DNA from: Acanthamoeba sp. SK_2022b
Lineage: Eukaryota; Discosea; Longamoebia; Acanthamoebidae
Direction of reading: 5' to 3'
DNA: 64,000 bases
NCBI GenBank assembly: GCA_027943245.1
Contig: JANDJZ010000159.1
Coordinates: forward strand, 1-64,000
Of this stretch, positions 24,861 through 29,709 are shown one piece after another; position 1 is the stretch's first letter; each line of letters opens with the position of its first letter. The notes under the pieces are model-generated. The model searched no databases. It was not told where the DNA came from and saw only the letters and a program-made list of their open reading frames with translations. Made by a program: the position numbers and the translations under genes.

Positions 24861-27800
24861 TTAGTTGGAGGCCTTCATGGCCTTGAACTTCTCGATGGCC
24901 TGCTTGATGGCGTCGATCTCCTGGTTCAGCTTGCCGACCTGCACATCAACAAGAGACGTGGGCCAAGCGAGTCAGAGGGCGGCTCACCGTGGGTTAGGCG
25001 GGGGGGGGAGAGAGTTGACGTACGCGCTCGGTGTTGGACTGCTTGACAGCGGCAGGGACCTTGTCCTCGTACATGGGGGCCTTCATCTTCTTCTCGAGGT
25101 TCTCGAGCTGCGTCGTGGACTCGCCGAGCTTCTTCTCGAGCTTCTTGACTTCGACGTCGGGATCGATCAGGCCCTGTGGCGGCGAGGCACAGACAACGAC
25201 GCGCGCAGCGGTGAGACCCCACTCGTAGGAGAGAGAGCAGCGTGGCGTGTAAAAAAAAGGGGGGGTGGTTGCCTCAGTGGTAGTGACAAAGAAAATGAAT
25301 ATAATCACTGATGATCATTTTCAATCTATCGTCATCGACAAGATAACTTCGGGTGATGATGATGAAACGAGTGTGCGCGTGCGTGTGTGTGGAGAAGGCG
25401 GCGTACCTTGAGGAAGATGTGGATCGCAACGTTCTCGTTGAGAATATTTACAGCGCAGCCGCTCGGCGGCTTGGCGTCGCTCTCGAGGATGTTGACCTCC
25501 GAAGCACCGGAGAGCGTGAGGATGACGGGCGCGAAGTTTCGGAACGTGTTCCTCAGCTCGTCCGAGTGGAACTCGAGGAAGAAGACCGGCTTCGAGCTCG
25601 GCGGAAGGCCGTTGTCGGCACGGAGGGCACGCGAGGCGCGGATGATGTCCTGCGCCAGCTTGACATCAGCCTCCAGCTGGGGATTGGCCCACGACTGCGT
25701 GTGCGCCTGCAAAGCAAAGAGGGGGGTGAGTCCAGGACTTCATAGGAACAGAAAACGAGTGGCGTGTGAAATGGACTAAACATAATTAATTAAATAAATA
25801 AATAAAAACAAAAAATAAGGTGAAAATTGTCTGTGTGTCAGACCCTTAGATGTTCTGAATTGTGTCCCAGCATTACAGCGTTAGGGCTCAGAAGTGATCA
25901 TCATCGACACAGAGAATTTGTTTTGGAACAGGAAAAGCGACGACCCGATGATAAGGTGGAACAGAGGAGGATTGGGGGGGGGAGCGGTACCGGCTTGGGG
26001 TAAGGCGAGACCATGATGCTGCAGATGTTGTCGCCGGGGCGCCTGGGGATGCGCTGGTAGAGCTCCTCGGTGACGAAGGGCATGAACGGGTGGAGCAGCT
26101 TGAGGCCGTAGTCGAGGCACGTGTAGAGCGTGTGCTGGGCCGACTTCTGCTCGGGGCTGCCCTTGTTGCGCATGGCGGGCTTGATGGCCTCGAGGTAGAC
26201 GTCGCACAGCTCGTAGAGCCAGAAGTTGTAGATGGCGGTGGTGCACTGGGCGAGCTCGAACGACTTCCAGCCCTCGTCGGCGTCCTTGACGGCAGAGTGC
26301 AGCCGGCTGAGGATCCACTTCTCCATGACGCTCTCCTGACCGGTGACGTCGGGCGAGGCCAGGGGCGCGTAGTCGGCGCCGAGGTTCATGAGAGCGAACT
26401 TGGTGGCGTTCCACAGCTTGTTACAGAAGTGGCGGTAGCTGACGACGCGGTTGATGTCGAGGTTGATGTCGCGTCCCTGCGAGGTGTAGGCGCAGAGGGC
26501 AAAGCGCATGGCGTCGGTGCCGCACTCGCTGATGCCGTTGGGGAAGTCCTTCTGCTGGCCCTTGATGGCCTTCTCGACCTCGGAGGCCTCGAGGTTACCC
26601 TCCCGGAGCTTCTGGTGCATGTCCTCCAGGCGAATGCCCTCCGTGACGTCGATCGGGTCGACGACGTTGCCCAACGACTTGGACATCTTCCTGCCGTGAG
26701 CGTCGCGGACCATCGCGTGCAGAAGAACCTGCGGGGAGAGGGGAGAGACGAACGCTCGATTAGTGCAAGTGCGATCATCTTCAGATGCAGAGCAAAGCTA
26801 TATCTCCCTCGAGCTTTCATCAGAGGCGTAGAAAAAAATCGCTCAACGGCAGGTCTTTAAATTAAATGCCATTTAAAGCCGCCTCAGTCGTCGGACCTTG
26901 TTTGTTCATCATCTAAAGCTAATGGTTGGGTGGGTGGGGGGGGGGGGAATAGTAAAGGGGGAATAAGAGAGAGACATTACCTGCGAGAAGGGCAGCTGGC
27001 CGGTGAGGTTGAGGCCCATCATGACCATGCGCGCGACCCAGAAGAACAGGATGTCGTGGCCGGTCTCGAGGAGCGAAGTGGGGTAGAAGGCCTTGAGGTC
27101 GGCGGTCTCGTTGGGCCAACCCATGACCGAGAACGGGAACAGGCCCGAAGAAAACCACGTGTCGAGAACGTCGGGGTCCTGCTCCAGTCTGATCTTCTCC
27201 GGCGCGACATCGGCGTGCTTGGCCTTGGCCTTCTCAAGGGCATCGGCGTGCGAACGACCGACAACCCAGTTGTTCTGATCCTCTGGCTGCATTGCATAAT
27301 GTGTTAGTTCTCGTCCAAACAGGAAATGGCGGCGGCGGGCGAAAGGCGTACATCAGGGGTAGGCTGTCCGTCGATGTGGACGAGGTAGGCGGGGATGCGG
27401 TGACCCCACCAGAGCTGGCGAGAAATACACCAGTCCTGGATGTTCTCCAGCCACCTGAACCAGACGGCCTCGTGCATCGCGGGAACGATCTCCAGGCGCT
27501 TGTCCTTGACCGCCTGTGACACACAAGAGAGAAAGAACGGAGATGATGAGTAAAACTTTGGCACGAAAAATAACCGAACCAACGACTAAACATAGAGAAC
27601 AACTATCTGATCAGACCCTTAGATGTTCTGAATTGTGTCCCAGCATTACAGCGTTAGGGCTCAGAAGTAATCATCACAAAACGGATAGTAGCCAAGTACG
27701 CAAATAAAATAATATAAAATAAAATAAAATGTGCAAGATACCTTGACAGCCTCGTCGGCCATGCCCTTGCAGCGGACCCACCACTGAGGCTTGAGGCGAG

Positions 27801-29709
27801 GCTCGATGACGTCCTTCGTACGCGAACAAACGGGGATGATCATAGGGTTGTCCTGGCTATCCCTGAGCAGACCCTTCTCCTCCAGCGCCTTCGCAACGGC
27901 AACGCGGGCGTCGAAGCGCTTCATGCCGGTGAAGGGAGCGCCGCCCTCCTCGTTGATGAGACCATCATCGGTGAAGATGTTGATCATCTGCAGGTTGTGC
28001 CTCTTTCCACACTCGTAATCCTTGGGATCGTGAGCGGGTGTGATCTTGACAGCACCTGTAGGAAAAAGCGAGAGTCAGACGCCATTTCTCACAAGAAAAT
28101 AAAAACAAAAAATAAGGTGAAAATTGTCTGTGTGTCAGACCCTTAGATGTTCTGAATTGTGTCCCAGCATTACAGCGTTAGGGCTCAGAAGTGATCATCA
28201 TCGACACAGAAATACAAGATTGAAAACATGGACTTACGGAAACAATCATTATAAGTGTGCGGGATCAGGACGTACCAGTTCCGACCTCCTTGTCGACAAG
28301 GACGGAGTCAGTGACGATGGGAATCCGTCGGCCATTGAAGGGATGAACCGCGAACTTGCCGTGGAGATGCTTGTAGCGCTCATCGTCGGGATGAACGGCA
28401 ATAGCTGTATCTCCAAGCATGGTCTCGATACGGGTGGTGGAGACGACGATCTGTTCCTCAGAGTTCTCGATTGGATACGCGAACGAGGTGAGGACACCGA
28501 ACTCGACCTCCTGCTTGCCATAACCGGGGACCTTCATTTTGTGGCGGCCCTTGAGGTCCTTGTGCTCAACCTAGCGGAACGGACGCCAGTCAGCAACTGG
28601 AGTCGGATTGGTTCTGGAACGAGAAGAGCACCAACCTCAACGTCGGAGATAGCAGTCTTGAGCTCAGTACACCAGTTGACCAGGCGAGTGCCGCGGTAGA
28701 TCAGACCGTTTTCATACATGCGAACGAACGCTTCGACGACGGCAACGGAGAGTTTCTGTAAAAACAAAACAAGGATTAGCAAAGTCACCCCATCACGCAC
28801 CACGCAACGACGTACCTCATCCATCGTGAAGACCTCGCGAGACCAATCGAGGGAAGATCCCAGACGCCGGAGCTGATTGCAGATCTGCGCGCCGTAATCG
28901 TTCTTCCACCGCCAAACTTCCTCGACAAACTTCTCGCGGCCAAGGTCATGGCGCGACAGATCGCGTTCCTTCTTCAACTTCTTCTCGACAACGACTTGCG
29001 TGGCAATACCGGCATGATCCGTGCCCGGAACCCACAGGACGTTCTTGCCGCTCATGCGGTGCCTGCAAGCGGGGGGAAAAAATAACACCGATTAATTCAA
29101 TAACGCGCCGAACTCCGGCAAGCGAAGCAGCGGCAAGCGTACCATCTGCACAAAGAATCCTGAATGGAATTGGTCAAGGCATGACCCATGTGCAAACTGC
29201 CAGTGACGTTCGGCGGCGGGATGACAATGATGAACTTCTCCTTGGTTTGATCGTTCTCGTCGGCCCGGAAGAAGCCCTGAGCAGCCCACCAATCGTACCA
29301 CGCAGCCTCAACGGCCGGAGGATCGTACTCGTTCAGCATGGGCTGTGTCATGTCTGGAAGAGTCCGATTAGAAATTGATCTCTTAAATCTCGTGTAGCAA
29401 AATCAAATCAGTTCTGGCGCACCCTTCTTTTCGCCCTTGGGAGTAGTGTTGTGGAATTCCTTCTTCAGCCGGATCTCATCCTTTTTGGCTTTCTATAAAT
29501 TGGATAGATTTAGGCGTGTCCTCAGTGAGAATTCAACAGCATAAAATTGCTGAGCGTACTTGGCTAGGTACCTTCTCGCCAGCAGCAGGTGCGGGCTTCT
29601 TCGCCGCAGGCTGCTTCTTCGGGGCCGGCTGCTTCTTGGCCTTGGCCTGCTGAGGCTTCTGCTCCGGCTGCGGCTGTGCTTGCTCTGGTTGCTGTGGATG
29701 TCCCTCCAT
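24861..29709 (-). CDS. Valyl-tRNA synthetase
   Basis: A class I aminoacyl-tRNA synthetase in about a dozen exons. The first exon is Lys/Pro/Gln-rich ([14 protein letters not shown]...KKQPAPKK), as in eukaryotic ValRS. Then [20 protein letters not shown] and the HIGH region [52 protein letters not shown]; the editing domain with [20 protein letters not shown] and [75 protein letters not shown]; and the KMSKS region [20 protein letters not shown]. The anticodon-binding domain and a C-terminal coiled coil ([20 protein letters not shown]) follow. It charges tRNA-Val and edits Thr-tRNA-Val. No clear mitochondrial presequence, though one gene may serve both compartments. Three introns host snoRNA-like sequences. 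Confidence 0.95.
25830..25913 (-). ncRNA. Intronic box C/D snoRNA candidate, copy A (ValRS intron)
   Basis: On the minus strand, in the same sense as the host gene, the 84-nt unit reads TCTGTGTCG, C box ATGATGA (25898-25904), a 56-nt body, D box CTGA (25838-25841), then CACACAGA. The ends pair as a 7-bp terminal stem (TCTGTGT with ACACAGA). The 15 nt upstream of box D, one base away (CAGAACATCTAAGGG), are complementary to CCCTTAGATGTTCTG of the conserved SSU rRNA V8-region sequence. Host, box order, box sequences, length and stem all fit an intron-encoded C/D snoRNA. The rRNA sequence is recalled from general eukaryotic knowledge; expression is not known. Confidence 0.8.
27602..27689 (-). ncRNA. 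Intronic box C/D snoRNA candidate, copy C (ValRS intron)
   Basis: A diverged relative of copies A and B in a different ValRS intron. On the minus strand: ACTATC..., C box GTGATGA (27671-27677), a body matching A/B almost base for base, the same guide (CAGAACATCTAAGGG), D box CTGA (27611-27614), TCA, GATAGT. The terminal stem (ACTATC with GATAGT) has an entirely different sequence from A/B yet still pairs, and the C box differs only at the R position (G for A). This is what selection on RNA structure would produce. Confidence 0.75.
28127..28210 (-). ncRNA. Intronic box C/D snoRNA candidate, copy B (ValRS intron)
   Basis: Same sequence as copy A over the 84-nt unit: C box ATGATGA at 28195-28201, D box CTGA at 28135-28138, the same 15-nt guide and the same 7-bp terminal stem. 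Identity also extends about 29 bp beyond the 3' end of the RNA (AAAAACAAAAAATAAGG then TGAAAATTG on the plus strand), so A and B arose by recent duplication between introns. Copy B lies in the intron between the [15 protein letters not shown] exon and the preceding editing-domain exon. Confidence 0.8.

Follow-up and report, generated by a model that had tools for sequence, protein, structure and literature searches.

The gene for valine–tRNA ligase (valyl-tRNA synthetase, ValRS) of Acanthamoeba sp. SK_2022b, which lies within the 64,000-nucleotide (nt) stretch analysed here (hereafter the window; positions 1 to 64,000 of contig JANDJZ010000159.1, assembly GCA_027943245.1), carries in three different introns three closely related units, A, B and C. 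These are very probably paralogous, intron-encoded box C/D small nucleolar RNAs (snoRNAs) that were copied within the gene and would guide methylation of 18S ribosomal RNA (rRNA). Two other introns of the gene hold C/D-like RNAs of different kinds, which are described after the three related units (Table 1).

The boxes, stems, intron positions, 18S antisense element and copy number of the three units are read directly from the DNA. All three lie in the sense of the host gene, on the minus strand, in introns 10 (A), 7 (B) and 6 (C), and a re-reading of the sequence bears out the original prediction as to their coordinates, boxes, pairing ends and orientation. In agreement with the RUGAUGA/CUGA pattern of the class, the C box is ATGATGA in A and C and GTGATGA in B, and the D box is CTGA in all three. 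The ends pair as TCTGTGT/ACACAGA in A and C (7 base pairs, bp) and as ACTATC/GATAGT in B (6 bp), where 6 and 3 nt separate the stem from the boxes; when the 30-nt flanks were subjected to mononucleotide shuffling, with offsets of 0-8 from the boxes allowed, the observed stem length was reached by 5 (A), 8 (B) and 7 (C) of 2000 shuffles. From TGATGA through the D box, B agrees with A and C in 65 of the 66 positions, and its C box has in addition a changed initial base. A DNA search of the 45-Mb (44.9 Mb) assembly finds three copies, a lower bound as are all copy counts from this search, and every one of them sits in a ValRS intron in host sense. The exact 20-mer made of guide and D box has no match in viral contigs and none in bacterial or archaeal contigs; a genome scan with the pattern ATGATGA-15N-CTGA was uninformative (30 matches, against 8 in the backwards control).

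One spacer base ahead of box D lies the element TCAGAACATCTAAGGG, which forms 15 Watson-Crick pairs with the organism's own 18S rRNA, or an 18-bp duplex when G-U pairs are counted. The 15-mer CCCTTAGATGTTCTG occurs at four sites in the genome when up to one mismatch is allowed, all of them exact (backwards control, one): the three copies, in antisense, and contig C286, in which Rfam recognizes a eukaryotic small-subunit (SSU) rRNA followed by 5.8S. When both strands of the 64-kb window were scanned for C/D units with guides of ≥10 bp to the 696 nt of readable own SSU and 5.8S rRNA, only the A, B and C loci emerged (six rows, being two overlapping C-box readings per locus), and none in the reversed window. 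Opposite the fifth position before box D stands the first U of CCCUUAG, which lies 14 nt past the first G of ACAGG; this G we take, by reference to the U25 guide, to be the Gm1490/Gm1434 site. Since the spacing of Gm1434 and Um1448 in Arabidopsis 18S rRNA matches this 14-nt distance (PMC11542601, Table 2), the predicted methylation target is the U equivalent to Arabidopsis Um1448. According to the same table, Um1448 has counterparts in tomato, in tobacco and, as a prediction from snoRNA sequences, in Ostreococcus, and none in the human and yeast columns; the Dictyostelium methylation table of PMC8817022 lists no Um at the equivalent 18S site. An assignment of the target to SNORD61 Um1442 or snR55 Um1269 was dropped, as these are two different sites in PMC8817022 and PMC11542601 and the 14-nt count leads to Um1448.

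That the host is a valyl-tRNA synthetase gene with the units in three different introns, as originally predicted, is upheld by a complete 12-intron open reading frame and by family scores. The intron calls are credible because the spliced reading frame is complete (1042 amino acids, aa) with GT..AG junctions at all 12 introns, because its product scores well above the cut-offs of two ValRS models (NCBIfam TIGR00422, 1037.2 bits against 612.1; NF004349, 1074.2 against 704), and because the two nearest database ValRS proteins, P0001 and P0002 (94% and 88% identical, respectively), align with gaps at residues 8-36, at residue 282 and at the last two, and with none at splice junctions. Both proteins come from JGI contigs of ~3.3 kb that barely exceed the coding sequence and are probably spliced transcripts. 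Seven of the introns are short (60, 65, 65, 69, 79, 80 and 85 nt) and five are long (220, 228, 233, 252 and 284 nt), and each long intron contains one C/D-like RNA. The G+C content of the window is 58%, which, like the assembly size, agrees with an origin from Acanthamoeba or a close relative; so does a cofilin-family exon whose product shares 80 of 84 residues with actophorin (PDB 1AHQ), a protein of A. castellanii.

Table 1. Features of the ValRS gene and its intronic C/D-like RNAs (positions in the window unless a locus is named)
Feature	Position	Strand	Details
Valine–tRNA ligase (ValRS), host gene	24861..29709	-	13 exons, 12 introns, 1042 aa
Putative C/D snoRNA, copy A	25830..25913	-	intron 10 (25707-25990, 284 nt); C box 25898-25904; D box 25838-25841; 7-bp terminal stem
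D-box guide of copy A	25843..25858	-	TCAGAACATCTAAGGG; antisense to 18S rRNA
114-nt unit of copy A	25800..25913	-	identical to 28097-28210
Putative C/D snoRNA, copy B	27602..27689	-	intron 7 (27514-27741, 228 nt); C box 27671-27677; D box 27611-27614; own 6-bp external stem ACTATC/GATAGT
D-box guide of copy B	27616..27631	-	antisense to 18S rRNA
Putative C/D snoRNA, copy C	28127..28210	-	intron 6 (28056-28275, 220 nt); C box 28195-28201; D box 28135-28138; 7-bp terminal stem
D-box guide of copy C	28140..28155	-	antisense to 18S rRNA
Copy C unit (28097-28210) with direct repeat	28091..28219	-	TCTTGT at 28091-28096 and 28214-28219
SNORD70-like C/D RNA	25269..25341	-	intron 11 (25174-25406); C box ATGACGA 25329-25335; D box 25274-25277; guide TGTCACTACC 25279-25288
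Orphan C/D-like RNA, 109 nt	26812..26920	-	intron 9 (26729-26980); C box 26906-26912; D' box 26884-26887; D box 26820-26823; stem AGCTTT/AAAGCT
Candidate guides of the intron-9 RNA			ACAAGGTCCGACGA before D'; TTCTACGCCT before D
Paralog of the intron-9 RNA in contig C356	L028 1492-1609	-	close behind V-ATPase subunit H exon (exon, then GT); intron or 3' untranslated region

Several results weigh against the identification of A, B and C as snoRNAs. No Rfam family reaches its gathering score anywhere in the window, and the best family for the three units at a loose threshold, SNORD25 (RF00054), gives 20.8, 19.3 and 20.8 bits against a gathering score of 39. A genome-wide SNORD25 search, in which 66 of 966 candidates were scored, lists five matches, three of which are A, B and C, the other two being unrelated places with 20.0 and 20.3 bits (contigs C373 and C556); in addition, SNORD25 matches at E up to 10 turn up in 12 of 14 control genomes. 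The minimum free energies of the units are no better than those of shuffled sequences (z -0.92 for A, +0.88 for B as a whole unit and -0.66 for C), no clear internal C'/D' pair is visible by eye in any of them, and no convincing D' guide target is found in the readable rDNA, most of the rRNA of this genome being unreadable. Folding energies no better than shuffled are common among C/D snoRNAs. The SNORD25 score carries no weight as evidence, given that unrelated places score alike and that most control genomes also match, and the identity of the units is argued from boxes, stem, register and target, with the Rfam score left aside.

The resemblance to the SNORD25 consensus resides in the common D guide, the best part of the alignment, where box D is preceded by the same 14 bases, AGAACAUCUAAGGG, and the same U is the predicted target. 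The two differ in that the D' guide of the consensus to the Gm1490/Gm1434 site (ACAGACCUGU) has no counterpart in A, B or C, and in a score of about half the gathering value. As a probe for a Gm1490-type guide, the pattern CACAGACCTGT-NN-TGA has its sole exact genome match on another contig (control, 0), and a Cm1703-type pattern likewise gave one match (control, 1); by eye neither has a clear C box in place, and they are uninformative as to the usual location of snoRNAs in this genome. The sequence near the sub-threshold SNORD25 match in C373 looks bacterial, with a ParA-like reading frame recognized by eye, and the assembly may contain bacterial contigs.

One copy does have a terminal stem of its own, as had been noticed, namely ACTATC/GATAGT; it belongs to the middle unit (27602-27689), not to the third listed. 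The further claim of compensated stem divergence overstates the case: since the flanks of B outside the body cannot be aligned with those of A and C, no homologous stem has covaried, and the stem of B is probably real but independent of the A stem rather than a covarying version of it. The sole stretch in common is an 11-mer, TATGTTTAGTC, further downstream of A and B in their introns (25707-25990 and 27514-27741); a match of 11 nt is reached by 13 of 300 shuffles, a weak signal, and the element may be a remnant of a common flank, a splicing element or chance.

Copies A and C have 114 nt in common without a single difference, 38 of them beyond box D, and the C unit is directly followed by TCTTGT, which recurs three bases before it; a 6-nt repeat is reached by 41 of 5000 shuffles, whereas the repeat flanking copy A is ATT only (1820 of 5000) and copy B has none. 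Stripped of the unit and of one repeat, intron 6 would measure 100 nt, close to plain intron sizes. The arrangement suggests, modestly, that copy C arose when an A-type unit was inserted, perhaps through templated repair. It is not a classical retroposed snoRNA (snoRT), because the unit continues past the end of the snoRNA and lacks an A-rich tail, the host-sense 3' end of the common unit being T-rich.

The two other C/D-like RNAs of the gene, in introns 11 and 9, are unrelated to A, B and C and had escaped the original prediction. The intron-11 RNA scores 37.6 bits against Rfam RF00575 (SNORD70; gathering score 50, E 0.0034 in 5.5 kb). It shares with that family the D guide, GUCACUACC before CUGA, and differs from it in falling below the gathering score and in that its guide and D box recur in an Spb1-like gene. 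Genome-wide, TGTCACTACC-N-CTGA has two matches, in intron 11 and in contig C821 (controls, 0), and by eye the latter shows the same C-box stretch, GATGACGATAG, and the guide inside a GT..AG intron. Apart from the C-box stretch, the guide and the D box, the two RNAs differ. Four reading-frame pieces flank the C821 copy; one matches the Spb1 C-terminal domain (E 2e-50), one DUF3381 of Spb1 below the cut-off and two match nothing. A putative guide for rRNA methylation lies here inside an apparent rRNA methyltransferase gene. The terminal stem of the intron-11 RNA, three consecutive Watson-Crick pairs long, is reached by 879 of 2000 shuffles and lends no support by itself. Its guide presumably addresses the site of human Am512 and Arabidopsis Am468, to judge from the numbering of these sites.

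The orphan RNA of intron 9 has a 79% identical relative in contig C356 (positions 1-101 of a 147-nt query). Within this pair, both guides are unchanged, ACAAGGTCCGACGA at D' and, box included, TTCTACGCCTCTGA at D, and each of two stems differs by one exchange of T-A for C-G: AGCTTT/AAAGCT becomes AGCTTC/GAAGCT in the terminal stem, and CTTTAAA/TTTAAAG becomes CTTCAAA/TTTGAAG in the internal one. These changes are suggestive of covariation, in pairings set by eye on two sequences, and are the sort of signal that the original prediction had sought in A, B and C. The C356 copy folds into both stems (z -3.77); when the intron-9 copy is folded by itself, the terminal stem forms and the internal stem does not (z -1.02); the latter appeared in a longer piece. 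With the D box at 26820-26823, the terminal stem comprises 6 bp in the ValRS copy (64 of 2000 shuffles) and 11 bp in the V-ATPase H copy (0 of 2000). A later CTGA was dropped as the D box of the intron-9 RNA, as it allows a stem of 2 bp only (1930 of 2000 shuffles) and the paralog pointed to 26820-26823. Neither guide of the pair finds a target in readable rRNA; the motif GGUGUAGAA of the large-subunit (LSU) rRNA is a possible lead.

It is possible, though on balance unlikely, that only one of the three related copies, presumably A, is a working snoRNA, and that B and C are recent duplicates which may have no function and whose likeness reflects their young age or gene conversion rather than selection. 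The identity of A and C well past box D, the nearly unchanged non-guide body of B and the short direct repeat around C would all follow from such a history, as would the contrast with the SNORD70-like and intron-9 pairs, which have diverged outside boxes, guides and stems. Against it stand the intact boxes and guide of all three copies, and the fact that B combines a permitted C-box variant, GTGATGA, with a 6-bp stem of its own (8 of 2000 shuffles). The earlier assertion that the units are functional RNAs and not a mere repeat is supported by the element antisense to own 18S rRNA, in register; the near-constancy of the non-guide body is as compatible with recent copying or gene conversion as with constraint.

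A mobile or structural DNA repeat devoid of RNA function, with a C/D likeness due to chance, could account for the repetition of the units, for the direct repeat at the ends of C and for folding energies no better than shuffled. It would leave as coincidences the 15 Watson-Crick pairs formed with the organism's 18S rRNA in exact register beside box D, the location of all three copies found in introns of one gene in host sense, and the different guide-like RNAs in two more ValRS introns, and is extremely improbable. The presence of such RNAs in 5 of the 12 introns might instead point to a role mainly in cis, on the splicing or expression of ValRS, with rRNA methylation secondary; the match of the A, B and C guide to 18S rRNA speaks against this, and we regard it as very unlikely. 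On the evidence of their sequences, A, B and C are very probably functional as box C/D snoRNAs.

For these snoRNAs we infer the following course of expression, processing, snoRNA-protein particle (snoRNP) assembly, methylation and duplication. The ValRS pre-mRNA would be spliced, the intron lariats debranched and the released RNA trimmed by exonucleases to a core protected at boxes C and D. The resulting snoRNP would pair with 18S rRNA (CCC-U-UAGAUGUUCUG) through the element adjoining box D, and fibrillarin would 2'-O-methylate the U facing the fifth base before this box, that is, the equivalent of Um1448. The copies would have arisen by duplication within ValRS, C as an inserted A-type unit and B as a separate copy flanked by a stem of its own, and the additional copies would probably raise dosage.

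Vertebrates carry sets of snoRNA paralogs in the introns of RPL4 or RPL17. The original prediction regarded a guide family amplified within an aminoacyl-tRNA synthetase gene as an arrangement not known before; paralogous snoRNAs spread over the introns of one gene are, however, documented in chicken and other vertebrates, where paralogs of one guide arose by within-gene duplication (PMC2653536), and the present case differs in its host, ValRS, and in being from an amoeba. Because of this precedent the arrangement is known in kind, and it is the setting, intronic snoRNAs in an amoebozoan, that is less usual. PMC3511168 argues that snoRNAs relocate from one intron to another among broadly expressed genes. 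Dictyostelium also has amoebozoan C/D methylation guides, but there 46 of 47 C/D snoRNAs are intergenic and only CD38 is intronic (PMC8817022), and in Entamoeba ~1% of snoRNA genes are intronic (PMC3542256). In species with three-digit introns C/D snoRNAs are largely independent genes, being more often intronic in larger-intron and in multicellular species (PMC8817022). No report of snoRNAs in ValRS introns or of Acanthamoeba snoRNAs was found in a literature search of titles and abstract beginnings, with subscription journals mostly outside its reach, and the available parts of PMC12309372, PMC3511168, PMC8817022 and PMC3542256 do not mention Acanthamoeba; one paper that matches ValRS and snoRNA, PMC3491384, deals with a different matter, a tRNA half that precedes an archaeal ValRS gene.

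A more far-reaching view, which we hold only tentatively and consider rather doubtful, is that ValRS constitutes a splicing-dependent snoRNA cluster (5 of 12 introns, three unrelated guides) whose units are still moving by insertion with short target duplications, and that a Um1448-type site was either kept from ancestry or regained in an amoebozoan.

In summary, these findings involve no new mechanism and make a modest evolutionary point: a single-celled, short-intron amoebozoan with five C/D-like RNAs in one gene departs from the published intron-size trend (PMC8817022), and ValRS emerges as a candidate snoRNA host gene that provides a predicted, testable site of 18S rRNA methylation in an amoeba.

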